Origin: Gracilaria domingensis
Taxonomy: Eukaryota; Rhodophyta; Florideophyceae; Gracilariales; Gracilariaceae
Assembly (NCBI GenBank): GCA_022539475.1
Contig: VCMS01000308.1
Location: forward strand, 1-64,000
Length of the DNA: 64,000 nucleotides
Direction of reading: 5' to 3'
The translations under genes and the position numbers were made by a program. Below are positions 300 to 50,661 of the stretch, in pieces. Each line of letters starts with the position of its first letter. The stretch's first letter is position 1. The notes under the pieces were generated by a model, which had not been told where the DNA came from, made no database searches, and was given only the letters and a program-made list of their open reading frames with translations.

Positions 300-3200
300 A
301 GAATCGTCGCGCTCGTCTGCGTCGGACCCGTCCCAGACGGTTGAACACCCGTCCAGACGGTGAACACGAATGACTCGGAAGCTAGGACCGTTCCTACGAG
401 TTATGACAAGATTGACCCTATCAAGGAGTTAGAAGAATTGAATCTCGGTCATGTACCGGTTTCACACCGTGAGAAGTTGCGCAACATGTTGCGAGAGTTT
501 ACACCAATGTGGGATGGTTCCCTCGGAGAGGTTTCAACTACGGAACACCGGATTGACCTCCTGCCGGAGACCAAGCCGATTGCTCAGCACCCTTACAGGG
601 CAGGCCCGAAAGCACGGGAAGAGGAAGAGTTTCAGATCAACAAAATGCTCCGCGCTGGCGTGATAGAACCGGCTCAGTCGCCGTGGGCATCTCCAGTTGT
701 ACTGGCTCCGAAACCCGACGGGTCCTGGCGCTTTGTATCGACTATCGTCGCTTGAACGATGTCACCGTCAAAGACGTGTACCCCATACCTCGTATGGACG
801 AGTATATCGACTCGCTTGGCGATGCTACTGTTTTCTCCACTTTGGATGCAAACTGGGGTTACTGGCAAGTACCAGTTAGACCGGAAGACCGTGACAAGAC
901 CGCGTTTACCTGTCATTCAGGACTATACCGCTTTAAGCGTATGCCGTTCGGGTTAACGAACGCCCCCGCTACGTTTCAGCGTGCTCTGGACATTTTGTTA
1001 GCTCGCTTCAAATGGCGGAGTTGCTTGGTATACCTCGATGACATCATCGTGTTTTCCAACAGTTTGGACGATCACCTCGAACATGTTCGGGAGATAATGA
1101 CCGCTTTGCGGGATGCTGGAATTACTCTCAAATTGAGGAAGTGTGAGTTTTTCACTCACTCAGTGAAGTATCTGGGCCATGTCATACGTCCAGGACGGTT
1201 ACTGATCGAGGAAGCTCGCGTGAAGTCCCTCAAAGAGGCGAAGCACCCCACTACACAGACAGAGCTACGCTCCTTTCTAGGGCTATGCAACGTTTATAGA
1301 CGGTTCATTTCTCGCTTCGCGAAGATCGCGGGACCGCTCAACGAACTCCTGAAGAAGGGACAACCGCCCAAATTGGGACCACTTACCCCCACGCAAGTGG
1401 AGGCCTTCAACTCTCTTAAAGAGGCTGTTACCACGGCACCCGTGTTAGCGTTACCAAAGAACGGGTTGCCGTACACCGTGGATACGGATTCGAGCGATTA
1501 CCAAATTGGCTGCGCTCTCTTTCAGACTACACCCGAAGGGGAACGCAAACCAATTGGCTATTGGTCTCGTACACTCAACGTGCACGAGCGCAATTACTCG
1601 GTATCCGAGAAGGAGTGTCTCGCCATGGTATGGGCTTTGCAGACTCTACGACCATATCTTATGGGTGTGCACTTTACCGTCAATACGGATCATTCCGCCT
1701 TGCGTTGGTTAATGTCAGTCACGGAGCCTTCCGGACGCTTAATGCGTTGGCGTCTTCGGCTTGCCGAGTTTGACTACGAGGTCACCTATAAGAAGGGTTG
1801 TTTAAACGCGCAAGCGGATGCTCTTTCACGTCTAGGAACTGAAGGTGAAGCTTTACCCGTCGATGACGAGGATGAAGATATCCCCTGTTTCCTCATGGAG
1901 GAGGGTGATGAAGACTACGACATCGTGTCGGACGACATCTGTGATGATTTGCTCGTCGCAGACGGTGAAGACCCGGAATCCGGTACATTCGTTCCCATTA
2001 CTCCAGAAGAGCTGGTGCGGGAACAGCAATCTGACCCGTTCTGTACGAGGATACGCTCCCAAATTAATGGTGGTGCTAACATCCCGTTCGGGGTCAACAC
2101 ACAAGGTTACCTCGTCAGAGTGGTTCGTTCTACCCCACAGATTGTGGTTCCTCACTCCTTACAAACAAGGGTATTGCATCTCTCGCATCACTCGCGGATG
2201 GCTTCCCATCCGGGTGCTAAGCGGTTATACACGACACTGCGTCGGGATTTCTACTGGCCCGCGTTAGCGTTGGACTGCTACACCACCGTGAAGGCGTGTA
2301 CACATTGTGCTCGCGAGCGAGTTAAACAGCGTCGCCATGCGAAGAAACTAACACTTTTCCCCGCAAGGGCGCCGTTGGAGTTTATTGCCATCGATATACT
2401 CGGCGAGTTCTTGCGTACTTCCCGAGGAAATCGGTTCTTACTCGTTATTACGGATAGATTCAGTAAGCTAGTCCGGACAGTTCCGTTGAAGTCGATTACA
2501 GCACGCAGTGTTGCGGAGGCATTCGTTCGCCATTGGGTTATGGTCTACGGTCCCCCGGTCAATCTCCTCTCAGATAATGGTCCGCAGTTTACTGCACGTT
2601 TCTTCCAGGATGTCTGTCGGATACTCGACGTGAAGAATCTCTTCACGACGACGTATCATCCCCAATGCAATGGGCAAGTCGAACGGTTTAACCGGACAAT
2701 GCTCTCCGCGTTGCGGGCTTATACAGTTGAACACCCGAAAACTTGGGATCTCTACACGGATACCGTGACGTATGCGTATAATACGCAAGTTCACAGAGTA
2801 ACTGGTTTATCGCCCTTTGAGCTCGTGCTCTCACGGACACCACCGCCAGTTGCGGTTGAACCATCAGCAAAGCTGGATACGTCACCGTCAATACGGGATC
2901 ACTACTTGCAATGGAAGCAGTGGTTATCCGCAATGGTACCTGTCGCCAGGTCGTCAATGGCGAAAGCACAACACGCTTACAAGCGGAACTTTGATGCCCG
3001 GGTACGGAGACCACTACCGCCACTGAAAGTGGGAAACCTCGCCTTTGTCAGGAAGGAGTACTACAACCCTGAAAAGGAGCGGCGCCACAAGCTTTCACCC
3101 ATCGCTGATGGTCCGTACCGCGTTGTCAGCGTGAACAAGGACACAGCCGTACTGGAAGTTGGTGACGCTCATGAGCGTTTCTCCCGCGATCGCGTGGTAA

Positions 3201-3451
3201 GAGGTCCAACCGTTCACACGGAAGTACTTTCGGACACACAGCAGGAAGCTGGACAGACAGAGAACCGAGGAACCTCGTCGCAGAACACTACACCCACTGT
3301 GGGGCTCCGTCACCCAACACGGGGTCTCGCAGATGTACCGATTATATCGTCGCAAGCCGAGGTATCGGAACATACACCGCTGGTGAAATCGCGTTTCACA
3401 GCGTCTGTTACACCGTCAACTGACGTGATGACTGCTCCCCGTAACGCTCCA

Positions 3452-3469
3452 CCTAAGGAGGGGGAGGGG
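3452..3469 (+). repeat. Internal polypurine-tract copy 2 of E1
   Basis: Second internal copy of CCTAAGGAGGGGGA, followed by GGGG, located just after the integrase GPY/F module where it encodes P-K-E-G-E-G. E2 has a similar purine run at the homologous place (about 19142-19162, CTCAGGAAGGGGAGGGAGA). Its position resembles the central polypurine tract of some retroelements. Confidence 0.6.
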
Positions 3470-4846
3470 AATTCACGCGTTGTCGCGGAGAGTGAGTCAC
3501 CGGTGTCGCTACCGTCGCAGCACCGTGATTCACGGGAAAGTAATGAAGCAGAGGCAGAGTCGCCTCAGGACACCGTCGAAGACGTAGTTGCTACGGACAC
3601 CACTGTCAGTGGGAAGGATCACCCGCTGTCGCGTGTTGAAGTCGCGAAGGACGCGCCGCAGTCGGCCGCTGTCGCGCAGAACTCTGCGGAGGATACACAA
3701 CCTTCCACGAAGGATCGCGACCTTCAGGAAGGACACCGCACGCAACGAACGGACTCAAGGTTGTCCCAGGATACTGGTATTGCTCACCCATCTGGGGAAT
3801 TGTCACAGGAACACGCGCCCATCGTCGCACGGACGCAGGACGCGGAGCATGCTCTCGTTCGCGAAGTTTCCACGGCAAGGCCGGAAGTTGATCAAGAACA
3901 CCCGACTTCTCGGCAGAGCAAGGCTACAGCGAAGCTGGATACTGTATCACGGAGTATTTCGGACGCGCAGTCGCCGCATTCCGCCGCTGACGACCGCCGC
4001 AAACCGCCTTCGCAGACGCGCTGTAGGGTAGTCACGGCAGATCCCGGTATCGTTGACACTGCAGAGCAGGAAGAAGAGAAGACGCTCGCTGAAGCGAAGA
4101 TCAAGCACCCCGGTTCCGGTAATGGTAGTGTACCGTTGCACCCAGCTTTGGGGAAGTCGCAAGTCGCACGTCATGACGTTTCACCAAGTCATGACGGCGC
4201 ACCGCTCGTTGGAGATACAGATTACAGCCCTGATTTAGGGAAAACGCACACTGCATCTGCAGGAGCGCTTGCGCACCACAAATCTTGGGGTGCGCAGCGC
4301 GCGCCACACAATGGGCCAATCACAGCTCGTGGCAGTGCCACCACCGCGAAACGTCGCGTGTCGTCACGTGAACCGGCACGTGCCGTGGTGAACAATCCGC
4401 CTCCGCGTTCGCCTTCACCGTCAGGACGGGAACTACCGCATGAACTAGCCGTTCGCGGACCCGCCGAAGCGGCGAAGCTGCTTGAGAAGACCCGGATTCC
4501 GGAAGCGACCACTCAGCGGAGGACACACTTACCGCCGAAGGCGTCAGGAGAAACTCACAGCACCGCTGGTGACTATGTAACGGCACCGCCGCGGCACGCT
4601 GACGACCCTTCGCAGGAAGAGCTCGAGCGGGGAGTTTACTCGAAAGAGTTCGTTGTCGACCACATAGTGGGGCACAGTTGGAACCCGAAGGGGTATGTTC
4701 AGTACCAGGTACGCTGGTATGGCTATCCGCCGTCGCGGGACTCGGACGAACCCGTGGAGCACCTACCCCGATCGAAGATCGTGCAGTACCACCGTCGTAC
4801 TAACACGGCGTTGCCGGCTAATCTACATCAAGCGATGGTCGGTTAA

Positions 4847-5357
4847 CACACGTCGCTGGAGACGGAAGCTTATCGCGTACCGCGCACGAACGGTTCTACG
4901 AACCACAACACTCAATCGAGGAACGCTGCGACAACCTCCAGAGGAGTACTGTACCGCTACTCGCGTGGTGAGGAGACACTCTATTGAGAGGACAGTTGAA
5001 GTTCGAATAGTAACGCCCTCAGGAAGAGGAGAAGTTAAGAAGCACTCGCAAGAGGAAGAAGACTCTATGAAGAGGAAAAGGAAGCTCAGAAGAGAAGAAG
5101 CACTCGTAAGAGGAAGATGAACTCGTAAGAGGAAGAAGCACTCGTAAGAGGAAGAAGCACTCGTAAGAGAAAGATCACCCCGGAAGGGAGAAGTTAAGAA
5201 GTATACACCTTGGAAGAAGGGAAGAAGTCTTGAGATCAAGAGAAGTTCACAGTTTACTGGTCAATGTTACTATGTTGTGGCTCGCTAGTCGAGCACACAA
5301 CGGCCAAGTTATTGGGTATCAGCTAGGAAGGACTCCCTAGAGGAGAAGCTGCACGAG
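4847..5357. other. Spacer between E1 pol and antisense ORF
   Basis: No gene seen. The two genes end tail to tail here (stops at 4846 on plus and 5358 on minus). From about 5020 to 5235 the plus strand is almost pure purine with interspersed ACTCGTAAG words, and includes the tandem array at 5100-5175. E2 has a shorter purine-rich stretch at the equivalent point (about 20309-20330). Confidence 0.7.
5100..5175 (+). repeat. 19-bp tandem repeat, four units
   Basis: Four head-to-tail units of GCACTCGTAAGAGGAAGAA (5100-5118, 5119-5137, 5138-5156, 5157-5175) with one or a few changes each. More decayed units extend on both sides. It sits in the convergent spacer between pol and the antisense gene. 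Confidence 0.9.
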
Positions 5358-7403
5358 TTACTCGGATTCCTGCTGGTCTCCAGCGTTCGCAAGCTGCGCA
5401 ATTAGCGCGTCGCGCATCTGCGAGACGTCGCCAGATGTCGAGTCGGAGATACCAGCCTCGCTGAGGAATTGAGCTATCACGGCAGCCCGTGCTTCGTCGG
5501 TAAGTCCCGCGTTCGCGGCTTCGTTCGGCGTAGCCGACGCCGCCATCGCAGGCGAAGCAACATTCTCCGCTGGAGTCGGAACCGCCACAGGCGTAGGAAC
5601 AGGAGCCACTACGGGCCCAGGAGCCGCTAGAGGCGCAGAGGGAACATTCACCGGAGTCGGGAAGATCGCGTTGACACCCGCTTGGGGACCTGGCACTGCT
5701 GAAGCAGGTACTGCCCCCTCCACCGGAGCTGCTGCGAAGTTGTCATCGCCATAGTCGTCACCGTCATCGGGAGCGTCATCAACCATGATGTTTTGATCCC
5801 CGACAGGGTGAAAGAACTCATCAGTCAGGATGAAACCCGTTGGGTGCCCCGGAGGGATGACTCGCTCGGCATTCCGAAGAAGTTCCGCCTCGGCGTTGGT
5901 AATCGGCACCCGTGTCCAGGGGTCGTAGTAGATGTAATCACCCGACAGTGGGGACCTGCGACCCGGAGACCGGTCAATGGCAAGATCGCCTTCGTCGCGC
6001 GCGCTCTGCGAACGAGGAACCTGGTTCCAGTCGACTCCATCAATCACTCGCAAGAGGCATACCACTTCCGAGAAGTTTCCATTACCGCCAAGCGGGATAG
6101 TGAGATCCAAGGCTCGGATGAGTTGCCGCAAGCGCGGGGGAATGAACCACAGTCGATACTGGTCATATACCTCGTTGAGGAGATACACCGCTGTTCGCGC
6201 CGCCCACTCCGTGAGGACAACGCTCCACCATCCCGTAAACGGGTTTGTCACGAGCCTACTACCCACATACGTGAGACAGGGGGGGAGTTTCACGTAACAG
6301 CCACGGCAGACCTCCACGGACGCCCACACAAAGGGGAGAGGAACATATCTCCCACGCATGTGGCGCGGACGAATCCGGTTTGACTCCGTGTTTTGATACG
6401 GGATAAGGTAACCCCATCGGGAGCGGGCACGTCGTTCGGGACGGATCATTGTTTGAAGGTAGTTGGACCGCGGTACGCGTGGGAGATATCGAAATTCTGC
6501 ACGCAGAAGCGGACGGGTCCAGCACAGGAGATCCTGGTGAACGGGGACGTTCTGGTAACGCTCCACCACACCGGCGAGCCGGGCAAGATTCTCTCCATAT
6601 TGGATTTCGCCGAGTGTTCGGAAGAAGGCCACGTCGAAACGGAAGTTCGCCGGAATCGGGCGCTCTGAGTACGTGCGAAACATGCGCATGTGCGCTACGC
6701 GAACCATGGCCGCTCGGGCGGAGTTGTGCGACTGACCACGATTGTGGACGAGCGCGTTGGTAGGCACGGTAATCCGGTAATGCCAGTCGAACGTCACCGT
6801 CATCCAGACGTGCACGCCTCCTGGGAGGTGACCACTGCCATCGGCATACGCCTCGACGAGGGAACGATTGGTCACGCCTTGCGGATGAAACCACGGAGCC
6901 CGTAAGAACGGTGTGGGATTGCTGCGAGGGTCGACGTTGTCGAGTTCGTCATACGACGCCCACGCGCCCGCATACGGGTTGACTACCGGTTGGACCGGAA
7001 CAGCAGGAGCGATCCAGTTCCACTGCGGTACAGACGCCGGGGGCGGAAGTTGACCACCCGTCTGGGGAAGAGGAGCCGTGTGAAATCCCGGATTGACCGG
7101 TTGCGGAAACGGAACGCCAGCGGAAGACGGCTGTGAGAGAGGCACTCCAGAGGAGGAAGGGTGTGAAGGCCCAGCGAAACCACCAACGTATTGGTTCTGA
7201 GACCCGCCAGGCGGTTGGTTGCTACCCTGATTCGGGTTCGGCATCGCGGGAAGCGCGCGAGGAAGAGACGAAAGCGCTGGAAGCGAGAGAGAAGGGAGAG
7301 CGCGCCGAGGTATCGGAGGAGACACTACCGCAGTACGCGTGGAGAGGGGTGGACCGGAGTCGCCGTTAGAAGAGACCGGGGAGGCCGGATTGGAGACCGT
7401 CAT
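5358..7403 (-). CDS. Antisense ORF (aORF) of the gypsy element, unknown protein
   Basis: A 681-codon ORF on the strand opposite gag-pol, between pol and the 3' LTR. I chose the ATG at 7403-7401; the frame is open upstream to 7466 but without ATG. Layout: Pro/Gln/Ser-rich residues 1-145; a globular-looking centre (about 150-500) rich in aromatic and Arg residues (for example CWTRPLLRAEFRYLP, CYVKLPPCLTYVGSR, YRLWFIPPRLRQLIRALDL, DRSPGRRSP); an acidic stretch DDAPDDGDDYGDDN; an Ala/Pro-rich tail and a final helix-like segment. No membrane span, signal peptide or known domain is recognised, so an envelope role is not supported. A degraded homologue occupies the same place in E2 (20578-22290). 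Third-position differences between them suggest selection on this frame. Promoter not identified; it would lie in or beside the 3' LTR. Confidence 0.85.
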   Translation of the reverse strand: MTVSNPASPVSSNGDSGPPLSTRTAVVSPPIPRRALPSLSLPALSSLPRALPAMPNPNQGSNQPPGGSQNQYVGGFAGPSHPSSSGVPLSQPSSAGVPFPQPVNPGFHTAPLPQTGGQLPPPASVPQWNWIAPAVPVQPVVNPYAGAWASYDELDNVDPRSNPTPFLRAPWFHPQGVTNRSLVEAYADGSGHLPGGVHVWMTVTFDWHYRITVPTNALVHNRGQSHNSARAAMVRVAHMRMFRTYSERPIPANFRFDVAFFRTLGEIQYGENLARLAGVVERYQNVPVHQDLLCWTRPLLRAEFRYLPRVPRSNYLQTMIRPERRARSRWGYLIPYQNTESNRIRPRHMRGRYVPLPFVWASVEVCRGCYVKLPPCLTYVGSRLVTNPFTGWWSVVLTEWAARTAVYLLNEVYDQYRLWFIPPRLRQLIRALDLTIPLGGNGNFSEVVCLLRVIDGVDWNQVPRSQSARDEGDLAIDRSPGRRSPLSGDYIYYDPWTRVPITNAEAELLRNAERVIPPGHPTGFILTDEFFHPVGDQNIMVDDAPDDGDDYGDDNFAAAPVEGAVPASAVPGPQAGVNAIFPTPVNVPSAPLAAPGPVVAPVPTPVAVPTPAENVASPAMAASATPNEAANAGLTDEARAAVIAQFLSEAGISDSTSGDVSQMRDALIAQLANAGDQQESE

Positions 7404-7466
7404 GCCGACGTGCTTAAATACACTCCAGAGGAGGAAAACGAAACCGCTCGCGTGGTCGCCTCGCAC

Positions 7467-7482
7467 CCTAAGGAGGGGGAAA
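7467..7482 (+). promoter_or_regulatory. 3' polypurine tract of E1
   Basis: CCTAAGGAGGGGGAAA lies directly against the TGTAGTGCAA start of the LTR, the place expected for the plus-strand primer of reverse transcription. Confidence 0.85.
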
Positions 7483-8298
7483 TGTAGTGCAACGCGATTG
7501 CGGGACTCCTTCGCTGATGCGATTCATAACATGCACGGCGATGCCGGGAGGTGGTGGCACACAGTATGAGTAACTGGTGAGATCAGCCCATTCTTGGGTA
7601 TACTTAATATTAGAATTAGTGTTATGAGGCGCACGGCTTAGCCGGTGGGTCACACACGTGTGGGAAGTTTGCACCCATTAGTTGGGGTATTTTAGATGTT
7701 TATTCTAGATATTTTCGCTACACCGCTTGACAGTGGGTTGGCACTCTACACTACTTAGTAGGTTGAGCTGCACCCATTGTCGGGGAAGTAAACGGACTAA
7801 CCGAGTGTTCGGCTCTGATGTTTCACCCTTGGTGACCGATATCCTCCTCCCGGAGAGTCGACACCTTGTGCAGGGTTCATCATCCGCCTCGCGGCATCAT
7901 TAACACCACTACCGCTTTCGCGTGTTTACTTTGTGTGTGTTTTCTTTATTTCTGCCCCTGTTATACAGGTAGCACTACTTGGTGTACCGGTGCATACCGT
8001 TCGTGGCTCGACACACTCGCGTGGGCTATTACCGCTCTCGCGTGTCATCGCCACACTCGTGGGTACCGTGTGCTACACACGTGACGCTACTGCCGACTTG
8101 TGTCGTGTGCTCTCTACCGCTGGACGCGTCTTCTTCGCCGCTTCGCTCCCTCCATTACTTGGGAAGGGTCGACCCCGGTCTTACACCCGGCATTGCCGTG
8201 TCGTACCTGTGGGAGCGCTCTACTGCTGTGCTCGCCTCTTGAGAGAGGGTCTGAACCGCCTTTGCGTGTCTTTCCCCATCGCTGGGTTTTGCACAACA
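7483..8298 (+). repeat. 3' LTR of E1 (family A)
   Basis: 816 bp, starting TGTAGTGCAA and ending TTGCACAACA (near-perfect terminal inverted repeat). Borders are confirmed by the family-A solo LTR at 11954-12682, which has the same ends and a target-site duplication. It contains the AGTAAAC box (7787-7793), a small stem CCGAGTG/TTCGG and GGCTCT (7811-7816), a module shared with LTR families B and C. The next five bases, GTGAT, may be the target duplication, but the 5' side is outside the window. Confidence 0.88.
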
Positions 8299-8444
8299 GT
8301 GATGGTTATTTGGATGCATCTTGTCAGAATCATCTGATATTCTGTTGCTTCCTGGTATAACTACCTCATGATCGCGTCTCTCGCCGCGAGTCACGTTGCT
8401 TCTTTCTTCATCTGAAGTTCTGCCCCTTCCTAGGTCATTGAAAA

Positions 8445-8927
8445 ATGTCTGCTAAGCAAGTTTCAGATACGGTCGCCGATGATGATACGCACAATCCTAC
8501 CGTTCCGCGTGAACGGTCCACATTGATAGAGCATGAAGCGGAAGAGGTCGGTAGTGATGCCGTTGCTAACGAGGAAGCCGAAGCAGATCTCGCTACCGAT
8601 ATTGAGGAACGGGTTGAAGCCGAAATCGCGGACTTTGAGCTTGTCTTGTATCGCCTGTTGTCTGGTGAAGCGAGAGAGGCAGTAGATCTTTACGACGGTG
8701 TACAGTCTCTGCCGGCTTTGTTCGTGCGTGGCCTGGGTTTCGGTCTAACGCTCGCCATGTTAGCGCGACGTTCATCCCGTCGCGCTGCGGCGCTGAACAG
8801 GATGCGCCAGGTGAAGCGCGACACGGTCGGTAACGCTGGCCCTCCTGCCATCAAGAAGCAGAAGACGAGTGACGACTCATCGAGCAGGAACAGAAGGGGG
8901 GCCTCGCACCAATCCGCCGCAACTTGA
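8445..8927 (+). CDS. Hypothetical acidic protein, 160 aa
   Basis: Not recognised. The ATG lies in a favourable AAAAATG context. The first 65 residues are strongly acidic (many E, D), followed by a mostly helical stretch with a hydrophobic segment (ALFVRGLGFGLTLAMLA) and a basic tail with a possible nuclear signal (KKQK, RNRR). A pyrimidine-rich CCCCTTCCTAG just upstream (about 8423-8433) could be a 3' splice site, so a 5' exon is possible. It begins about 150 bp after the E1 LTR; it could be a host gene or part of another unrecognised element. Confidence 0.4.
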   Translation: MSAKQVSDTVADDDTHNPTVPRERSTLIEHEAEEVGSDAVANEEAEADLATDIEERVEAEIADFELVLYRLLSGEAREAVDLYDGVQSLPALFVRGLGFGLTLAMLARRSSRRAAALNRMRQVKRDTVGNAGPPAIKKQKTSDDSSSRNRRGASHQSAAT

Positions 8928-9226
8928 GTTATCTCCGCTGAGAATTGGGCCTACCACTCTGCTTCACAGCTTGCTTTCTTCATGCCCCCGCTTTTGCCTT
9001 GCAAATAAACGTGTTCCGCTCATGCCTAGCATCATCAGTAGTAGCACACGTCTCTTATTGCAGGCGCGTAATGCCACATTATGCTTTCCTATCGCACTAC
9101 GCCACGCTGTGGTGATTCTCCTATGCAACGGGCCAGCGTGGCGCGGCGCGTCGTCTCCTGACTGCGCCGCGGCAGCCGCCACGTCGACTCTCTTTTGTGC
9201 CACGACAGCGCGGCGCCGCGTACCCC

Positions 9227-9360
9227 TGATGCGCCGCGCCAGCCGGCACGGCGACTTGCTGATGCGCCGCGCCCGCCGGCGCGGCGACTTGCTTGCTGGG
9301 CCGCGCCAGCCGGCGCGGCGACTTGACTGCGGCGCCGCGCCCGCCGGCGCGGCGGCTTGC
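9227..9360 (+). repeat. 33-bp GC-rich tandem repeat with internal palindrome
   Basis: Four units (9227-9259, 9260-9292, 9293-9325, 9326-9360). Each holds GCCGCGCC and GGCGCGGC arms around a short centre, then GACTTGC. Each unit could form a very stable hairpin. A looser copy lies upstream near 9160-9225. It stands out sharply from the AT-richer flank that follows. Confidence 0.85.
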
Positions 9361-11953: not shown

Positions 11954-12682
11954 TGTAGTGCAACGCGTTTCGCGGTACTTGGCGCCGAAGGATGTCGCGT
12001 CAAAGCCGGGAGAAGGCGCTCTACAGTATTGTTGGTCCGTGGCACACGTGTGAGAAGTTTGCAGCAATTAGTTGGGGTATTGTAGATATTTATTTTAGAT
12101 ATTTTCGCTTCACCACTTGACAGTGGGTTGGCACGTCACACTACTTAGTATCTTGAGCTGCACCCATTTTCGGGTAAGTAAAGAAGCCAACCGAGTGTCC
12201 GGCTCTGATGTCTCAACTATGGTAACCGATGGCCTCCTTGTGGAGAGTCGACACCTTGTGCAGGGTTCATCATCCGCCTCGCGGCATCTACAGCACCGCT
12301 ACCGATACTGTGTTGTTCTTTCTGTGTGAGTTCTACCCGATTGCCCACTGTTGTACAGGTACCGCGTTTCCGCTTTCCGGTGTTGCTACTTTCCAGTGTT
12401 GACCACCTCGCGTGGCTCATTTCCGCCCCCGCGTGTCGTCGCCACTCTCGTGGTTGTTTCGTGTTACACAGGTGACGTAATCCGACTCTGTGTCGTGGTC
12501 TCTACCGCCTAGCGCGTCTTCTCTCGTTTACCGCTCTTTACGCGTGTCGTGACGGTGATCTTCGGTCTTACACCTGGCTAGTGCGATCACTCTGAGAATG
12601 GCTCTATCGCTGTGCTCACCTCAAAGAGGGAAGGCTCCGAACACCTTTCGTGTCTTCTCCCATCGCTGGGTTTTGCACAACA
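11954..12682 (+). mobile_element. Solo LTR (family A) nested in the E2 5' LTR
   Basis: 729 bp from TGTAGTGCAA to TTGCACAACA, same family as the E1 3' LTR but with an internal deletion near its start. The 5-bp duplication CACGC is at 11949-11953 and 12683-12687, and the family-B LTR resumes exactly after it (GGGTGGTTTTTGTC). Family A was therefore active after E2 inserted. Confidence 0.92.
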
Positions 12683-12731
12683 CACGCGGGTGGTTTTTGT
12701 CTACGTCCGTGGAGTGGTTTTGCACTACAAG

Positions 12732-20235: not shown

Positions 20236-20577
20236 AGCTCCCATAGGGGAAGGAGCACCGCATCATGCGGACAGTTACCGCCCAAAGCGGAGCAACGCTA
20301 CTAGGCGAGAAGAAGAAGAAGGAGAAGGGAAGACCGGCAACAGCCGGAAAGTTTTTACTGATGTTTCTGCGGCAAAGCCTCTCACTACACTATGAGGTCA
20401 CCCACGCTATCATGGGACTAACCTCCAAGGCCGGAGAAGAATCCACTACCACCACCGGTGGAGCCTCCGCCACCACCACAGAAGTGCTGCGCAGCCAGTT
20501 GCCGCAGCGTAGCAAGGTCCGTAACCGACGGGGAGGCGAACACTCTTACTCCGTTACGGAAGCTGCGGATAACCGCT

Positions 20578-22290
20578 ACCTACGGATCAGTGCTAGCACC
20601 TGCGCCTCTTGTCGAAGGATCTGGACCCATCTGGGCAGCCGGCATCGCCACGAGAGCCGGAATGGGCACACTGCCCTCGGTGATATCCACTTCCTCCACC
20701 ACTTCCGACCCTTCGGCCGGCACGTGCTTCACATCAGAGAGTTCCTCATCTTCGTCACTTTCTCCGACGAAGACGAACCCTCTCGAGTGTTCCGCAGGAA
20801 CGGTACTCTCCGCAGCACGCCGCGCGGCAGCCTCCTGAGCTGAGATGTGCTCCGACTCCCATGCGTCGATAAAAACGAAGTCTCCCGCGTTGACGTCGCG
20901 TCCCGGAGATCGGTCCCACCGACCGTAGATGCCCTGGAACACCTGGCCAGGGGAAACCTGGTCCCAATTGCCATCCTCGAGGTCATCAAGAAGTCCACGG
21001 GCCTCCCGCTCGTTGCGGACAGAACCGAGGACCACGGAAAGATCCAAACCGCGAATGGAATGGCGGACCAACTCCGGTACGAGCCACAACCGGTACGCGT
21101 CGTACACCTCCTAGAGGAGGAAGGCCGCAAGGCGGAGGGTCCACTCCGTAGCGAGGAGACTCCGCAGACCGCGAGGCGGATTCGACGCCCGAAGGAACCG
21201 GGAACCCACGTACGTCAGGCACGAGGGAAGCTCCACGTAACATACTCGCGGCACCTCCACCCGGGACCAGAAATCGGGGAGTGGGACATACCGTTCGTAA
21301 CAGGAGCTCGCCGCAAGGCCCTCGACCTCTACACACTGATGGGGAATCAACAACCCGAATCGGGACCTCAATTTCTGCTCGCCGCGGAGTTCTTTAAAGA
21401 AATCGCGATGCGTTGACTTGCGGAGATATCGGAACTCCGCTCGGAGAATCGGCCTCGTCCAGAGCACAAGGTTCTGGTAAGTCTGAACGCTGTCAGCCTA
21501 GCTCGCAAGGTCGGGCAATATCGTGGCGAGGCGTCCCCATACTGGGCTTCCAGGTAAGCACGGTATCGCGCAACATCGAAGCGATACTTTGGGGGCACCG
21601 GGAGATCGTTCGGAGACCGGTAGAACCGATCATATCCAAGCTGGCAATCTCGTTCCGAGCATACATTTCGGACTCGTTGTTTTCCCACCAGAGTCAGTCG
21701 CGTGGAACCGCAATGCGGGCTAACCAGTCCCAGGACCGGACTACGCTGACTGGCAGCCTGCCGGGAAGCACTCCGTCAACGACATAGGAGTCGATTTGGG
21801 AGATGTCTCGAACGGCTTCGGTATCGAACTAGGGAGCCCTGGCGAAGAAACCGCTATAATAGTGCGGGGTCCTCACTCTGAGGGAGCTCGGCGTGGGCCA
21901 TCCATTTCAGGTGGTCGGAACTGCGGCGGCAGACGGTGCAATCCAATCGGGGATGTTCGCCCGAGCGGCACTCCACCGAGGGGCATCGGTAGCTGCCACG
22001 GAGGCAGGAAGAGTCCCTGTCGGATAGGGTAAGGAACGGAGCCGTGATTGCACGGTAACGAAGAGGCGCGCAGTACCGGAACGTCGGAGAATTAGAAAAC
22101 CGCGACGCGGGTACCGCGGCGGATGAGGCAGAGAGTTCGAACCGTTGCCTTGCACCGCAAAGGAGAACTGCGGAAGAGCAGAGATGGTGATGAGGGCGCT
22201 GTCGTTCGGCAGGTTTACCAAAATGTCGGGGAAGCCCCCCGGATGGGGTGGAGTACTTATACCCATGGTGATGGGAATGACCGAGTGCAT
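20578..22290 (-). pseudogene. E2 antisense ORF remnant, homologue of E1 aORF
   Basis: Three frame-shifted pieces align in order with the E1 antisense protein. 21688-21368 (FRFDVAFFRTLGEIQYGE versus YRFDVARYRAYLEAQYGD). 21467-21111 (CWTRPLLRAEFRYL versus LWTRPILRAEFRYL; CYVKLPPCLTYVGSR versus CYVELPSCLTYVGSR). 21107-20580 (YRLWFIPPRLRQLIRALDL versus YRLWLVPELVRHSIRGLDL; DRSPGR in both). The C-terminal Ala-rich tail of E1 is not preserved. Same strand and same place relative to pol and 3' LTR. In one 16-codon block six of nine changed codons are synonymous, which supports past selection on this frame. Confidence 0.85.
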
Positions 22291-26514: not shown

Positions 26515-27832
26515 AATCGAACGCATCAGCCATGTCTACCTTTCACGATGTACCAAGCTTTGAACCCGCCAAAGACTTACTACAGTGGCGCCGTGACGTA
26601 ACCGAAGGGGTCGACACTGTCCGTTTTGCAGCGGAAAAAGGACCAGACAAGAAGTACAAAACCATGTACACAATTCTTGGTCTCCTTCTTGTTGAGCGTG
26701 GATTACCCCTTGCTCAGAAGAGCATTGTCGAGGAAGTCGAGGAAGCTCAGGCAAAAGGGAGAATAGACCTCGGTCAAAAAGACCAGATCCAAGCCGTGCA
26801 GGAAATTGTCGACCTTGTGGCGGTCGATCCACCAATTTCGATGGTGAACCGCCTGATCTCGTCGTTTAATCGTGTTTTGAGCCGCCGCCGTAGGAAAACG
26901 AAGACTTGGTAGCTTTCGTTGATCGCTTTCGAGGCTTAGCTTCGCAGCATCTCATACATGCCGGCTTCGAATCTTCCACGCACATTGGAGAAGTGTTGGT
27001 AATAACATTGATCAATAATGCCAACTTCCCCGAAAACACCCTTCACAATGCGGTGTTGCAGCTCTTTTCTCAAGCACAGTCTCGCGCTGAGCATGGTCAG
27101 ATTGCAATCGATGGAGGTATCGTTCCTTTTACAGTCATCCAGAAGATAAGAAACATCTTCGATTCGCTTGTCCAGACTTTGGAACCGATGGAAATCCCGG
27201 AAACGCTTGAGACGATGCAGTCAAACTTTCCAGACTATCGTCGAAAGGTCAAAGACGCGTCTGATGCTCTGGCTCTGCAACTCTCTCGACTTCTTCAGCG
27301 CAGAGGAGACAGCAAACCGGAGAACATCAAAGCTATTGCCAAACCGGCAGCTTCCCGGGTTGTTCTTCATCTTGATGACGCCGTTTCCGACCTCTATTCT
27401 TTTTATTCGGCGATGAAGCAGGCCACGAACGAACAATCTCGCAATGATATCGAGGCCATGGTGCAGCAATGGGTTCAAAAAGCTCTTCTCTCTTATGTTG
27501 TGCATCCTTCTGAACCTCAGCAGCCTGCGGAGGATACGGCTGCTGGAGGTAACAAGAAGAGGACCAAGAAGAAGAGAGGCGGAGGTGAGTCCTCAAGCCG
27601 TAGTGGTGACCCGTCTAGCCCTCCTGCAAAGCGCCATAATAGTAAGAAGGGGCTCTGTTTCGACTGCGGCTCCAACCAACACTGTCGTAACTCTAAGGAG
27701 TGCAAGTACAAGAACAGTGAGACGTACCTACAGAGAATGGTTCACCGAGAGAAGGAATCGTGCCAGAAGCACTCTCAATATGATGGTTTTTTTCGCCGAT
27801 ACTCCACACCTTCGAACGCTAATCGAGCTTGA
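26505..27832 (+). pseudogene. gag: Copia gag, one frameshift
   Basis: Starts at the ATG within the primer site; one frameshift near 26890-26905 joins two open parts (26505-26912 and from about 26897 to 27832). The protein is mostly helical, with a basic segment KKRTKKKRGGG and a C-terminal zinc-knuckle variant C-FD-C-GSNQ-H-CRNSKE-C (one spacing longer than the usual CX2CX4HX4C). It would form the virus-like particle and bind element RNA. Confidence 0.8.
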
Positions 27833-30800
27833 TATGTAGACGTGGAAGCCCCTAAACGAGAAAGTGAAGCCGAGGACCCGCACCCGATCCTTGACATTGG
27901 CTGCCCCCGTAGCGTTGGTGGTGTTCATGCTGCCGCCCGCATCGCTTCCTCACTCGGTATCCCAATCAAGCTTCGTCCCCTCGACCGTCAGCCATTCTAT
28001 CATGGTCACGGCGTGAACTAAGATGACGCCCGTTTGGCATTCGCGATCTGGGACCTCCCTTTAACGGATGTCGACGGCCGTCTGTGCTTTCTCCCGATCT
28101 ATGTAGTGGAGGGAGATGGTTTTCTCCTCGTTGGAAACTCCCTTCCGCATCAATCGAACCTGTTGGGAAATGAACGGCTGATGGTAGTACCCAAGGGAGT
28201 TCTGTCCAATTCTGAGCTCCGTCTTTAGACGTACAATTTGCGTCTTCCTGGCGATCCAGAGGACACATCCGAACAAAACTGCTGGTTGTACCTAGTACGA
28301 AAGAAGCAATTTCATCGTACTTCGCTGCCTACAGAGATCTCGCGTCACGATCGACCGCACGGGAGCTCAAGAAGAAGTACTCGGACCACAAGGTGTGCCG
28401 TCGGTTTGCTGCTAAGTTGCATGGCTTCACTCACATGACAGTTGATGACATGAAATAAATCTGTCGCCGTGCCGACGTCTTCACACCGGTACTTCAACAA
28501 GCACTCCAAGCCGTAGTGGATAAGTATACCACTTGTCGGTCTATCGGGCGTCCATTGTCTTCGAGGAAGGTGTCATTTCGGCGACTCCTAGTCCCGTTCA
28601 ACAGCCATGTGCAGATCGACTTCTTATTTATCTCTGAGATGGAGAACTTCCGATCTTGCATATGATCGACATTTCTTCCGGGTTCTCTATCACCGCTATG
28701 CTGGAGACGAGGGAAATCAGTGAAGTCAAAATCGCTTTCGAGCAACAGTTGGGCAATGTGGATGGCCCCCCGAGTTCACTATCAGGTGACCCGGAGTTCG
28801 ACAAGGGCACATTCAAGAATTTCCTTGATGCCCACTCTATTACGTTGGAGCCGCGTCCTGCACGGCGGCATAATAAGATCTGCGTGGTCGAGTCGAAGAA
28901 CGAAATTGTGAAGCTCATTGCTATCAGGCTCTTGCGTGATGCGAGCTATTTTTGAGCATTGCGCAACACCCAGTTCACCTACGCGTAGATCCTCTCCCGC
29001 GCGACATTCATAAGCAATTGCATGTATAGAGGTCGCAAGATGAGCAGTTTCAAACTTGTTCGGGGTTACACCCCGAGCCTCATGGGCTTGCCACAATCGC
29101 ATACGGCTGTGGAGCTTCTCGACGCCTAACAAGAGCAAGTGGCCAGGAGAGCAATACAAACACTTGACAAGACGAGGAACATTCATATCCTCATGCAATC
29201 TCACTTCCCGAAGAACACTTTCGTGAACTACTTCAAGCGCGGACCCAAGTTTGGTGTCTGGAAAGTGGGATACGTACGCGAAGCAAAAGAAAATTCCTCA
29301 AATGAGCAACACAATGGTCCAAGAATTCGCGCGGCGTACGAGGATGTGAGACTCGTCCCTAAGTCAGCCCTCCTGGTCGAGCTGGATCAAATAGGTTACA
29401 CCTCGCCACTATCTCACGGCATCGTCGAAGTGGCAGAAGTGCCGGAAGTGCCAAGCGGTGATGCATTCCAGCCGCCCGTTGTTTCAAGAGCAGAAGTGAG
29501 CGAGGAACCACCAAAGCGACAGCAGCTGCGTAAGGATTCCATCGACGTCTTAATTAACGATGAACCCACTCTGTGATCCCACCACCACAACTTATGCTCG
29601 CTGCTTGGTGGTGAGCAACCGAAGGTCATTGAATTTTCTGAGAGATATATAGGTTCTCCGTACGATCTTCCTAGACCAGAAAAGGACATCGGACCGACCA
29701 AAATCACCAACATTCTTCCTCCAGCACAGTTGAAATCTGCCGAGGAGGAGATCTTGTCTGATACTATGAAGATGATGGGCAAGGACCATGTGTCCGAATC
29801 GCAAACGGAGTTCCTCCCACGATGGGTCGTGGACAAAGCGATTTCCAAGGAAACGGAGGTGTACCATGGTCGTTACAATGTAGTTCAGTGCTCTGCTTTG
29901 CCGACGTATGCAAATGTTGTGACGTCCCACCATTTCTTTTACATTAAGGATGATGGTGAGCGCGGTTCCCTTCGCCTCAAATGTCGCCTGACCCCACACT
30001 GCAACAGAGATAAGGAAAAGGATGGTATCCGCAAGGATTCTTCTTCCGCCCAGTTCTCTATAATTCGCACGGTTCTTTCTCTTGCGGCCACGCTTGGACT
30101 ACCATTGGCTACCCTCGACATCAAGGGTGCATATCTCCAGGGTGGAGACTTGAAAAGGGACATCTTCATGGTTCCCCCGAAGGGATGGGCGAAACCACAC
30201 CATATTTGGAAGCTACTAGCCCCAACGTATGCCCTCGTAGAATCGAGGCGTCTATGGCAACAGCTGTTGAGAAGTGGCTGTCTGACGAAAAGTTTAAGAC
30301 CATTCCGGGATTGCCTCAGCTGTTTGTTCTTAGAAATGCTGATGGCAACATCAAGATCGCCACGGCCAAATTCGTGGACGATATGCTCCTCGCTGGCTCA
30401 GTACCCGCCTTAGAGAGCTTCCATAGTGCCATTGCGAAGCGGTTCACAGTCGAAAAGTTTGATACTTCTCGCAACCAAATCTTCAACTGTCTACGTATAA
30501 ACCCTAAGGATGATGGCTCTATTTCTCTGAACATGACTGAATTCATGGCCAGCATTCACAAGCTTGACATCGCGCGAGAGCGCCGCAAGAAGTATGAATC
30601 CCCATGCACGAGTGAAGAGAGAACTCGGTTCCTTGGCCTCACCGGATGCTTGAATTTCCAAGGCCACGGTATACTTTCTCAAGCCTCCTTCGCCTCCAGT
30701 TACCTACAGCACCGCACCGCGAGGCTAATGTTCTCTGACGTGATTCTCGCTAACCAAGTTTTGGGGGAAATCCAGACACTCAAGCCCGAACTGTTCTATC

Positions 30801-31375
30801 GCTGCCCACCGTCGCTCGCAATTTCCCCGCGATACCTCGCATTCTCGGACGCGAGTCAAGGTAAGGGCTTTTATGGGCAAACGGGCTACTTATCGGGGCT
30901 ATTTATGCCTGGGGGGTGGAGAGGCTTTCACGTCCTTGATTGGACGAGCACCAAGCAGTCAAATGTTTCCTTCAGTTCGATTGGTGCTGAGATCTTAGCT
31001 GCTGCACATTCTGCAGATAGAGGTTCTTCGATGTCATCGGCAATTGTCGACATGTACAAACCCCCAGGCGATCTTCCGTTTGTGTTAACCGTCGACTCTG
31101 AAGACCTTTACTCCACGAGCACCACTTTGCACAAAGGCAAAGATTATCGTCTTATGCCCACGGTGGCAATTTTTCGTGGCTCCTTCGAAACGGGTGAGAT
31201 CACTGTGCTGCAGTGGATACGCGGACCTCAAAACCTCGCGGATGCGTTGACGAAAAGGAACGTTGCTACGTTCCGCAAGCTCAGTGAAGTGATGTGCACT
31301 GGATTTCTGATAGACACCGTGTTGCAAAACGCGAAGAGAGTTTCCCACAAGAACCAAGCAACCGAAGCGTCCTAA
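27833..31375 (+). pseudogene. pol: Copia pol: protease, integrase, RT, RNase H
   Basis: Protease site ILDIGCPRSVGG (about 27890-27925), with Ile where DTG/DSG normally has Thr/Ser. Integrase pieces: HVQIDFLFIS (about 28608), MIDISSGFS (28659), LSGDPEFDKG (about 28780) and VVESKNE (about 28885). RT from about 29860 (YHGRYNVVQCSALPTYANVV) with DIKGAYLQGG carrying a catalytic Asp, then a frameshift near 30240. The second RT Asp pair is in FVDDMLLAG (30375-30400). RNase H: AFSDASQGKGFYG (about 30840), SSIGAEILAAAHS and NLADALTKRN, stop at 31373-31375. Several stops interrupt 28000-29000. Confidence 0.85.
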
Positions 31376-44305: not shown

Positions 44306-45994
44306 TTATGCAGAGGCCTTGGCGGCAACAATTGCGTGATGCACTTCAGGTTTGTCGGCTCGAAGCAGTTCGTGGTGATAATAGGGACTGAAACAGTTGA
44401 CGTGGAAGCCTTGTTGGCATGCACAACATGAATACATCGTGTGAATATTGCCCTGTTTCTGCGAAAGAAGTGTACACAGGAAGCAACCAATACTTCGTCT
44501 AGCGGTGGTCTCCAGCAAAAGTTGCGTTGTAATCTCTGGCGCCTGCGCGGATCTAAGTTGAACATATAACGGTTCGGGTGCTTTGGTGATGGAGAGAGCT
44601 GCCTGGTTTTGTTTGTATTCCACGTGATTCCTGACTAACCCCATGATGATCCGATATTTCATTTGACAAACATCAATGACAGTCTCCCCCGATGTTCCAA
44701 ATGCTTTTGCAAGTGCGTGAGCGTTCAACACACATGTGTGAAGAATAAAGGTCAGAACGATCATTGTCACTCTTCGCTTTTTACGGACTGTAGGTAACAT
44801 TGAACGAAATTGGTCAAACCTGTCAACGCCGTTCATGAACTGGTTGTATGCTGCAATCCTTGAACGGGCAAGAATTACTGTCCGCTGCATTAATTCGTTA
44901 CCGATCAATCCCTGTAATGTGGCTAGGCCGTTAACAGATGATATGGAATGCTCGTCAGGGTTTTGAATGCGAAAAGTAGGAGTACCTGCAAGATCGTTCG
45001 TGTAAAATATGACGACAGCACAATCTTTGAACACGGTATGCCCTGTATTCTCTGCGACTTTCACGTCATCGTTTCCACCGTTTACTTTCTCTAACACCTG
45101 CACGAGTCTCCACTCTCAGCGATTAGCGTGTTTGAGGGTCTCCACTGCCTTTTTTATGGAGGGAGGTTTATGCCGTCTGCATTGTTCAACAGCACTGTAC
45201 CTCACACTTTAAATTCTCCATCTGTAAGTGAATGAAGTTGGCGGGCGAGCAGATGTCGAGTATAAAAATTGTTCATTACCATCAGTCGTCTATGATGCGG
45301 TGTTGGACGTACAAACGTTTGGTGAGCCATTTGAGCACACCATAAAGCAGGAGCTTTTGATTTTGGTACCAGAGTTTCATCTATACCTTAATTTATTGCT
45401 CCGCGCAGTTCGCAAAACACGTTCGTGTAGCGTTCTACTAGAGACTGCCCAGTGCTGTTCTTTGAGCCATTGTTCTTAAAGTTATGAAGGTAGGCGTGCG
45501 TCTAGCAAACTACAGCGTAGAACCATATGCCAAACTTGACTGGCTTGCTCTTCATGTATGTGTGTGCTTTTGTCCGCCCCTGGCACCTAGTTTTATTCTT
45601 CTCTAGAGAGCTAACACTAACCAGGACGGCAATGGTCGCCGCGTGTCTTGAATAGTGCTCTAGAACGTAGAACGAGTGCCACGACTGATCTTGTAGAGCA
45701 ATGTTTGCTTCATATGCTAGATATAAGCGCAATGCACAGCAGGGATGTTGAGAAACACGTCCCATCCCATCACGCTCTAAAGAATGGTATATTTAGAAGT
45801 GCAGACGTGGACCAAAAATCACGTACCCGGTTGAAACCGTAGACAGAAGTCGCAAGCTCCAAACCAAATAAATCCATAAGCTCATTGCTTCGGAGAGATT
45901 TTGATCGTTTACCTCTTCGAATGAGTTTTGCCCTTGTCAACTTGAGAATGAATTCTAAGAAGAACTCATTCAGGAACAAGTGAAACGAACCCAC
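44306..45994 (-). pseudogene. piggyBac transposase, broken
   Basis: DDE_Tnp_1_7-type transposase. Upstream pieces: 45994-45770 (VYGFNRVRDFWSTSALLNIPF) and 45765-45502 (KSKPVKFGIWFYAVVC). An open C-terminal part at 45103-44306 has YNQFMNGVDRFDQFR (the GVD..DQ block with a catalytic Asp) and a Cys/His-rich end (CFLC ... YSCCACQQGFHVNCF) like the piggyBac C-terminal zinc finger. Frames differ between pieces, so no full protein can be made. The stop at 44306 adjoins the LTR-like insertion. Confidence 0.8.
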
Positions 45995-46986: not shown

Positions 46987-47691
46987 CTAAACCAGAGGGA
47001 GCTGATTACCTCCGTCCCCTCCCTTTCCCCCGCCGGCGCCCTTCCCAAAGTTTCCAATAAGGATCGCAGTACCACCGTCACCTCCATCACCAGCAAGAGG
47101 TCCATTGCCACCCTTGCCACCATCTCCTCCGAAGGCACCATAGCCGAGGTCTCCATACAGTGCTCCAAGGCCTCCACGTCCCCCATCACCTCCAATATCA
47201 AGGAAAGAATTTCCTCCCTTGCCACCCTTTCCGCCAAATCCTCCAACTCCAAAGAAACCTTGAAGCAGACCAACACCACCATCCCCACCATCTCCTCCAT
47301 TTCCTCCAAAGAAGCCACCATCACCTCCCTTACCACCCTTGCCTCCAAAACCTCCGTAGCCGAAATCACCATAGAGAGCACCACCTCCTCCGATGCCACC
47401 ATTTCCGCCTGCTCCGATGATGATCGCGTCTCCGCCGTCCCCTCCTTTACCTCCAAATCCTCCAATTCCAAAATCGCCACTCAAGACACCGTTACCTCCA
47501 TCTCCTCCGTCTCCACCACCAAACAGACCAATGCCCCCATCTCCTCCATCGCCACCAATGCCTCCGCTGTTTGCGTTTCCAATGGCTGTGCCTAGGCCAC
47601 CAGCACCACCATTGCCAGCCTGACGATCGGATGGAATCAGAGCTGCATTCCCGAACGCGATGAACACGGAAAGAGCCAGAACTGTCTTCAT
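46987..47691 (-). CDS. Secreted glycine-rich protein
   Basis: 234 codons, ATG at 47691. N-terminal signal peptide MKTVLALSVFIAFGNAA, then almost entirely GGxGGxGG repeats with periodic hydrophobic units (FGxGGFGGKGG, LYGDFGYGGFGGKGG, DGGDGG). Repeated GGX triplets can form polyglycine-II-like or stacked structures; likely an extracellular or cell-wall protein. The strand opposite shows long open frames only because of the repeat. A TATA box lies upstream. Neighbour to, but outside, the piggyBac element. It looks like an intact host gene without introns. Confidence 0.8.
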   Translation of the reverse strand: MKTVLALSVFIAFGNAALIPSDRQAGNGGAGGLGTAIGNANSGGIGGDGGDGGIGLFGGGDGGDGGNGVLSGDFGIGGFGGKGGDGGDAIIIGAGGNGGIGGGGALYGDFGYGGFGGKGGKGGDGGFFGGNGGDGGDGGVGLLQGFFGVGGFGGKGGKGGNSFLDIGGDGGRGGLGALYGDLGYGAFGGDGGKGGNGPLAGDGGDGGTAILIGNFGKGAGGGKGGDGGNQLPLV

Positions 47692-49779: not shown

Positions 49780-50661
49780 GTGCGGCGAGGCGTTGCGCGC
49801 TGGCGCCAGCCGGCGCTCGTTTGAAGGGCGAAAGGCCCGGAGCGGAATTCGGGTGGCGCGTGCGCAACGGTCTGCGTCTGCGGCGTGCTGTGCGACAGAG
49901 TGTCCGCAAAACAGACGAGGCGTCCTCCACGGCGGCGGCGCGCCGGGGCGCGCCGGGGCGCGTCGGGGCGCGGCGCGCGACGCGGCGCAGGCCGAAGAGC
50001 CGCCACCACTGGCGCGCCGCCGTACGTGTCGGCCCGCCATTCGCCGCGCGTGTTGCGCGCGGCACGCGCATGCGCAACGGGCGTTGCGCAATCTGCGCGC
50101 GCCGCGTGCTCCGCTCGCGCCGCGGCGCGCCGCAACAGCCAATCGCCATCGACGCGCGCCGGGCGCGCCGCCTATAAACGCGTCCGCGCGGCCGCCGAGG
50201 CGCGCGCGCGTGCCGATTCGCCGCGTGCCGCGGCCGCTCGCTGTGCCGCTCCGTCCGTGTGTGGCCATGAGCCGTTGCAAACGTCTCGCCGCTTGAAAAA
50301 GTTGCATCGAGGCGCTCCACTCCTCTCCCCTCCAACACCTGCTTCCGCCACCCCACCCCGTCCTCCGCTTCCCTCCACCTTCTCCGTCCAACTCCAAGCA
50401 TCCCGCCCTCCTTCCGTCCTCCGTCCCCTCCCACCCCCAACCCCCCTCGCCCGTGCCCTTGTATGTAACGCCTTTTATTTGGCTTTCTTTCGACTCGTCT
50501 GTCTTCTCGTGTACGACCACGCTGCTCCTCGCTCTCCACGTTGCGCGTCCTATTCCTGTCCGTTCCCGCGCCAACGCATCATTCCTCTCTCCCGCGCTCC
50601 GTGCATGTAAGCCGCGTGCAAGTGCGGACTTGCAGTACGTGTGCAACGCAACCAATCAATC
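49780..50661 (+). promoter_or_regulatory. GC-rich promoter and leader of the urea carboxylase gene
   Basis: 49850-50280 is extremely GC/CpG-rich, unlike the flanks. TATAAA is at 50173-50178. A pyrimidine-only-like tract runs about 50322-50458 (CTCC, CCCTCC words), then a leader to the ATG at 50662. Long open frames on both strands here are composition artefacts. A GTATGT at about 50464 could be a 5'-UTR intron donor, unproven. Confidence 0.5.

Follow-up and report, generated by a model that had tools for sequence, protein, structure and literature searches.

A probable antisense accessory gene in chromodomain-bearing Ty3/gypsy elements of the red alga Gracilaria domingensis

Does a long open reading frame (ORF) on the strand opposite to gag-pol of a red algal retrotransposon encode a protein that serves the element, or can it be accounted for in another way? 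The question is raised by positions 1 to 64,000 (forward strand) of contig VCMS01000308.1 in the Gracilaria domingensis assembly GCA_022539475.1, a stretch that we call the window and that forms the start of contig C308 in our numbering. The window opens within an element, E1, whose pol (683–4846, plus strand) carries Pfam matches to reverse transcriptase (RT; RVT_1), RNase H (RT_RNaseH), integrase (rve) and a C-terminal chromodomain (Chromo, PF00385) in that order, which identifies it as a Ty3/gypsy chromovirus; gag and the 5′ long terminal repeat (LTR) are missing because the contig begins at base 1 of the window. As the original prediction, made from the letters of the window, had stated, an ORF of 681 codons from first ATG to stop lies antisense to gag-pol (5358–7403, minus strand) between the chromodomain and the 3′ LTR, the position that defines the aORF-3R class of antisense ORFs, and we refer to it as aORF. 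The spacer between pol and aORF contains a 19-bp tandem array (5037–5174, strand not assigned), and on the other side a sense-strand polypurine tract (7470–7482, plus strand) and the 3′ LTR (7483–8298, plus strand, TGTAGTGCAA...TTGCACAACA) could be read from the sequence; in a search with this LTR plus flank, LTR matches ended at or near 8298 in most of 40 rows. A chance ORF was rejected, as open runs in 2000 mononucleotide shuffles of the stretch reached at most 385 codons, compared with 681 in E1. We put at about 80% the probability that aORF genuinely serves a chromodomain-bearing Ty3/gypsy lineage as an accessory gene, which is maintained by selection, has its own antisense promoter and encodes a soluble regulator or host-interaction factor.

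Searches of the 77.9-Mb genome gave the first part of the answer; their counts refer to the matches listed and are lower bounds. The E1 protein retrieved at least 73 matches, 42 of them covering at least 650 residues, and 28 of these 42 long family-A matches have no stop, which removes the possibility, raised in the original prediction, that no element other than E1 has an intact aORF. The absence of a stop applies to the matched stretch only, and some such rows were frameshifted when fetched (L029, at C5, which is one of the 28, and L049). Copies were assigned to families according to identity and the length of the open frame rather than by tree building. Twenty family-A copies were fetched as 10-kb stretches picked by their aORF match, a sample biased to intact copies because the best matches were taken; pol lies upstream of aORF in 19 of them, an LTR follows aORF in all 20, and the LTR query (7485–8298) was matched over its whole length in all 20.

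In families A and G the gene is also paired with the pol of its own family. Of the 86 RT places in family A, 38 are followed at 3366–4854 bp by an aORF on the opposite strand, which accounts for 38 of 65 aORF places, and a single same-strand pair lies within 8 kb. Nine of the 16 family-G RT places are paired with a family-G aORF, eight at 3230–3358 bp and one at 5729 bp, and no cross-pair between A and G occurs within 8 kb among the matches listed. Because the pairing counts cover only the matches listed, unpaired RTs are not evidence of absence. At C248 the place of aORF was predicted from the RT alone, and an aORF, with a frame break, was found there. In families A, B and G, aORF is located downstream of pol on the other strand. 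The view that aORF is a passenger, captured from the host or derived from a nested transposon, would agree with the lack of any significant Pfam, NCBIfam or PDB relative and with the known transduction of genes by LTR elements (excerpts of PMC7264820), but we consider it very unlikely, since aORF occupies the same slot in families A, B and G and in E2, a second element of the window, and its pairing with pol is family-specific in A and G. A nested transposon with terminal inverted repeats was rejected, because the sole pair of inverted repeats detected places one arm in the spacer and its partner within the gene. An ancient capture, before the families split, would concern the origin of the gene and not its present role.

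How widely the gene is distributed was addressed with five outside homologues as genome queries, four of which (P0002, P0003, P0007 and P0009) retrieved mostly new copy families. P0003, a protein match from Gracilariopsis chorda, led to family B (69–72% identity; 57 of 77 long rows without stop), and P0009, from Agarophyton chilense, led to family F (38–43% identity; 69 of 85 rows stop-free, at least five of the 85 rows being family G); both species belong to the Gracilariaceae. P0002 retrieved copies at 48–69% identity, most with stops, that fall into two groups or more (C and D), and P0007 retrieved family G (53–67% identity), then family A. The fifth query, P0004, gave families A and B at 38–44% identity and no new family among the matches listed. 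The aORF proteins of families A and B are 43% identical, and their pols 68% over residues 17–928. In the family-B copy L041, pol stays open for 1708 residues, as far as the chromodomain region, and a 599-codon ORF lies antisense to it; family-B pol is homologous to E1 pol including the chromodomain region, as expected of a chromovirus, and 8 of 12 further family-B stretches retain an ATG ORF of more than 500 codons. Just outside the LTR, L041:1–960 reads as N. Judged by these protein matches, the aORF gene is a member of a superfamily.

Within the window, E2 holds a further homologue. Part of its 5′ LTR (12043–12683, plus strand) is recognised by a sequence match of about 75% identity to the E1 LTR, and the degraded aORF that had been predicted in the same position and on the same strand is recovered by protein matches at 20625–22032 (minus strand), in blocks at 20625–21491 (40% identity to the E1 protein) and 21604–22032 (28%). 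These blocks contain stops and a frame change and lie downstream of the E2 chromodomain, which ends at 20232; the translated stretch 20575–22290 has 12 stops. The homologue is closer to P0003 and family B than to E1 (about 49% versus 40% identity in the main block), and the E2 RT is 75% identical to family B and 66% to E1. For the codon block CYVKLPPCLTYVGSR, the prediction of six synonymous differences between E1 and E2, including AGT versus TCC, was correct, but the differing codons number eight rather than nine.

Whether selection acts on the protein was read from codon counts, from which L029, L030 and L032 were left out for frameshifts or divergence, and L033 as well in the shared/singleton and region counts. 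The ratio of nonsynonymous to synonymous rates (dN/dS) had been proposed as the check, and in the deeper comparisons it supports the prediction: it is 0.14–0.20 for E1 versus five copies of another subfamily (L024–L028) and 0.14–0.25 for E1 versus L023–L028. Between E1 and L026, 24 of 74 changes are nonsynonymous versus 48.1 expected, and none of 500 placements matched for trinucleotide context was as low. Seven of eight pairs are depleted of nonsynonymous changes in the aORF frame, five at 0/500 and two more weakly (19/500 and 6/500); the eighth, E1 and its near twin L009, shows no depletion, with seven changes, too few to tell. Of the five other frames, the seven informative pairs show depletion only in that labelled opposite frame 1, to 0.65–0.95 of expectation, compared with 0.37–0.77 in the aORF frame. 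We read this as a codon phase that mirrors that of aORF, and coding on the sense strand was rejected as the source of the constraint.

Counts over many copies give the timing of this selection. In family A (29 copies), the ratio of nonsynonymous to synonymous changes (N/S) is 0.82 at sites shared by at least two copies versus 2.27 at singleton sites (p = 3e-6), and in family B (9 copies) it is 0.38 versus 1.27 (p = 3e-4), by Fisher tests that treat sites as independent, which they are not where copies recombine. The neutral N/S is 2.2–2.8; family-A singletons lie at this value and family-B singletons below it. aORF is selected while the elements multiply in both families, and after insertion it decays near-neutrally in family A and is under weaker constraint in family B. 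Pairwise dN/dS in family B is 0.04–0.66, with 30 of 36 pairs at 0.30 or less, for the 13 stretches minus L042, L049, L050 and L052, whose longest ATG ORF does not exceed 500 residues, and with the differing tails of L044, L045 and L048 kept as read. In E1 and the 13 copies with one main pol match (L011–L015, L018 and L027 being left out), shared sites comprise 52 synonymous and 25 nonsynonymous changes in aORF and 50 and 46, respectively, in pol, and in these 14 copies aORF is at least as constrained as pol. Constraint is strongest in the core, residues 146–545 (46 synonymous and 20 nonsynonymous shared changes).

The claim of a selected accessory protein has stood up to these analyses, which show purifying selection in two families and a protein conserved between divergent families and between species; the protein would be made from an antisense transcript. 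It could instead be that the RNA, not the protein, matters, pairing with genomic RNA and tuning transposition or triggering silencing while the open frame is incidental. A TATA-like box does face the element interior on the antisense strand, and a role of antisense RNA in tuning transposition or silencing is discussed in excerpts of PMC7264820. However, changes are filtered by their amino-acid effect, chiefly in the antisense frame, and invariant residues are common to aORF proteins at 33–46% identity, which makes an RNA-only explanation highly improbable, although an RNA role could coexist with the protein.

The aORF and pol of a copy may not always share the same history. Between E1 and L024, 68 of 71 aORF differences fall in the first 300 codons, and their pols are 99.9% identical over residues 17–1387; between E1 and L034, 91 of 95 differences fall after codon 450. 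The RT of the diverged copy C46 is 96% identical to that of E1, yet its aORF is only 67% identical. These patterns suggest an exchange of aORF alleles among elements, of the kind that template switching would produce.

Where would transcription of the gene begin? A pattern search of the E1 antisense strand found TATTTAAG at 7420–7413 (7413–7420, minus strand), 62 nt from the LTR edge, as the sole TATA-like match in 3.4 kb, and GTGTATTTAAGCACG is exact in 20 of 20 fetched family-A copies. The corresponding boxes are TATATAAG in family B, TATAAG in family G and in E2 (22256–22261, minus strand, 58 nt from the LTR edge, by the same kind of search), and GGTATAAG before the gene in C46. In all four elements examined (A, B, E2 and G) the box stands 58–63 nt from the 3′ LTR edge. 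We infer that this box, lying between aORF and the polypurine tract, is the strongest antisense promoter candidate, in preference to the LTR. The first ATG follows the box by 17–20 nt in family A and C46 but precedes it by 7 nt in B and by 20 nt in G. An internal Met, followed by an Asn/Pro-rich stretch, lies 176 nt after the box in family A, 173 in C46, 157 in G and 101 in B. The real start may be this Met, codon 54 in E1, which would reduce the coding span to 5358–7244 (minus strand), with counterparts comparably placed in other families, and the protein to about 628 residues.

The alternative here is the arrangement known from HBZ and ASP, in which a promoter within the 3′ LTR drives the antisense transcript and translation begins at the first ATG. 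The first ATG is only 79 bp from the LTR in E1 and 53 bp in family B, in B, E2 and G it precedes the TATA-like box and would require transcription to begin farther upstream, and L041 has a second antisense-strand TATA-like match within its LTR (L041:1630). The E1 LTR, however, has no match to the same patterns, and it is the distance from box to LTR that stays constant in the four elements while the first ATG shifts from one side of the box to the other. We regard the LTR promoter as unlikely, though deserving serious attention.

The protein matches no recognised family, as had been predicted. Searches of Pfam, NCBIfam, PHROGs and PDB gave no significant sequence relative (best PF20884 at E = 0.11, phrog_2279 at E = 0.093 and 8xks_T at E = 0.41); the E1 protein had no Pfam match at E ≤ 1, six members searched at E ≤ 10 gave PF20884 only, in one member and at the E value just mentioned, and a pattern scan of viral contigs gave 24 matches, none of them confirmed. 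A motif close to RxERxxRSRxG is present in the core of all nine aORF proteins compared, together with many invariant W, R, P and G residues. The position between pol and the 3′ LTR would suit an envelope-like protein, which is nevertheless hardly credible, given the antisense orientation and the lack of any transmembrane-like stretch in the nine proteins (maximum KD19 1.52). An env-like identity, for which a transmembrane segment and sense orientation are expected, was rejected.

The most striking property of the proteins is their composition. Lysine accounts for 34 of 4721 residues (0.7%) in the nine aORF proteins, with 0.15–1.2% in eight and 2.2% in P0005, compared with 4.25% and 4.57% in two pols, 4.4% in a gag-like ORF and 3.7–4.5% in two host-like ORFs; arginine stays at 7.5–10%. 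The E1 aORF protein has one lysine in 681 residues versus 59 in 1387 in pol (p = 1e-9). AAR triplets number one in the aORF frame of E1 versus 10 and 5 in the other two frames, and in family B two versus 14 and 2, the last frame being also the poorest in AAR in both pols. In our view the depletion acts chiefly at the level of the protein, with base composition explaining part of it. Being long, lysine-poor and conserved across aORF homologues, the stretch qualifies as a lysine desert. According to excerpts of PMC10169902 and PMC10665810, lysine deserts are common in proteins of the ubiquitin system, where this conserved depletion, which aORF proteins resemble, restricts their tagging; those proteins are cellular, and the link of aORF to ubiquitin is by analogy only. 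The depletion suggests that the aORF protein works near, or must escape, the host ubiquitin machinery. A bolder version, likewise argued by analogy and in our opinion distinctly unlikely, would make the product a counter-defence adaptor with almost no lysine, which engages the ubiquitin–proteasome or SUMO system of the host while remaining untagged itself, encoded by an antisense gene that evolved, with its own promoter, independently of those of plants and retroviruses, and with alleles recombined in an arms race. The retroviral Vif and Vpr proteins are the model for counter-defence via the host ubiquitin–proteasome or SUMO system.

If aORF is an accessory gene, as we prefer, a TATA promoter belonging to the gene, immediately internal to the polypurine tract, would start antisense transcription, and translation from the internal Met would yield a protein of about 560–630 residues. 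This protein would have a proline-rich, probably disordered head, a conserved core of about 400 residues, an acidic linker and a short conserved C-terminal motif, and may act as a soluble regulator or host-interaction factor that aids the element.

A number of observations weigh against this reading. The 14 nearest copies have dN/dS of 0.3–2.4 on 7–26 changes, about 1 or above in 10 of the 14, and on this side the proposed check did not turn out as predicted; the spread is what decay after insertion would give. The tail, residues 546–680, is weakly constrained (35 synonymous and 46 nonsynonymous shared changes), and residues 1–53 have too few changes to judge (8 and 6). One of the 20 fetched family-A copies, L014, lacks pol upstream, and the piece beyond a family-D aORF has no recognisable pol, in a placement that allowed only part of a chromodomain. 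The third element of the window, E3, has an LTR at 60492–61348 (plus strand) that is 98.8% identical to the 3′ LTR of L041, and a gag-like ORF at 61513–63069 (plus strand, from the ORF list), labelled by its position after the LTR and its likeness to the ORF at 13170 and not by a family search, before it runs out of the window; the stretch predicted to hold its aORF has neither aORF nor recognisable element sequence, which may reflect truncation or rearrangement. As to the promoter, the TATA-like box is present in 9 of 12 further family-B stretches, the match inside the L041 LTR counts on the same side, and the frequencies with which mononucleotide shuffles hit the band of 55–72 nt (9, 17, 37 and 28 of 5000 for A, B, E2 and G) are a guide only, because patterns and band were chosen post hoc and the elements are related. 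Finally, base composition alone lowers the expected number of lysines in the E1 protein to 9.1 (standard deviation 2.9, mononucleotide shuffle).

How does aORF compare with known systems? Antisense ORFs had been correctly attributed to some plant gypsy elements, namely the aORF-3R of the Tat/Retand elements (Grande gene23, RIRE2 and Retand TRP28), with which aORF shares the antisense position between pol and the 3′ LTR and the presence in other species. The Tat–Retand elements with aORF-3R or eORF-3′R also have tandem repeats in the corresponding region, like E1. In contrast, Retand elements are non-chromoviruses of flowering plants, whereas the lysine-poor aORF is found in red algal chromoviruses, and the TRP28/Transposase_28 domain (PF04195) has no match in the aORF proteins searched, unlike in the Retand antisense proteins. 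A 2011 survey by Steinbauerova et al. reportedly found the extra ORFs of plant chromoviruses in 5′ regions only. Neumann et al. (PMC6317226, in excerpt) describe high divergence among the extra ORFs of plant elements and ask whether these are functional. In fungi, brtn of the Boty-like elements of Botrytis cinerea is an added antisense gene of an LTR element (excerpts of PMC8365987 and PMC7264820), a likeness to aORF that is by description. HBZ of human T-cell leukaemia virus type 1 (HTLV-1) is likewise an antisense accessory protein encoded near the 3′ LTR (excerpts of PMC11963269 and PMC7264820); the HTLV antisense promoter is inside the 3′ LTR, whereas the candidate box of aORF is outside it, and the likeness is one of arrangement. 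We found no literature report of an antisense gene in red algal LTR elements among titles and abstract openings, in which subscription journals are thinly covered. The anatomy of aORF was already known from plant Tat/Retand and fungal Boty elements, and the protein family appears to be new. Conservation of a single antisense protein family extends over several element families and to other species, and the finding puts antisense accessory genes in red algal chromoviruses, a long way from the Tat/Retand cases of flowering plants. Selection on the protein while the elements were active is seen directly, with weaker or no constraint later, and the question becomes testable through a well-defined protein, a predicted start of transcription and a near-absence of lysine.

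Some observations concern the copies and their surroundings. In L014 (C273:101014–110956) the aORF protein is 98.5% identical to that of E1 and the LTR match is full-length, with a diverged gag-pol beyond in inverted orientation. C602:1305–2908 is 98% identical to window positions 7404–8997, the E1 3′ LTR and its right flank, and is perhaps a duplicated or allelic copy of the insertion site of E1. To the right of E1, a GC-rich 67/34-bp tandem array (9141–9360) lies within an ORF. Elsewhere in the window, ORFs in several frames at 26906–31375 are, from their translations, presumably those of a copia-like element (gag-like with zinc knuckle, and RT and RNase H parts); two overlapping ORFs in two frames at 50641–55796 look like a host gene for urea carboxylase/allophanate hydrolase; and an ORF at 44306–45103 resembles the C-terminus of a piggyBac-type transposase. 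A 234-residue glycine-rich repeat ORF at 46987–47691 has, as read from its translation, a start resembling a signal peptide.
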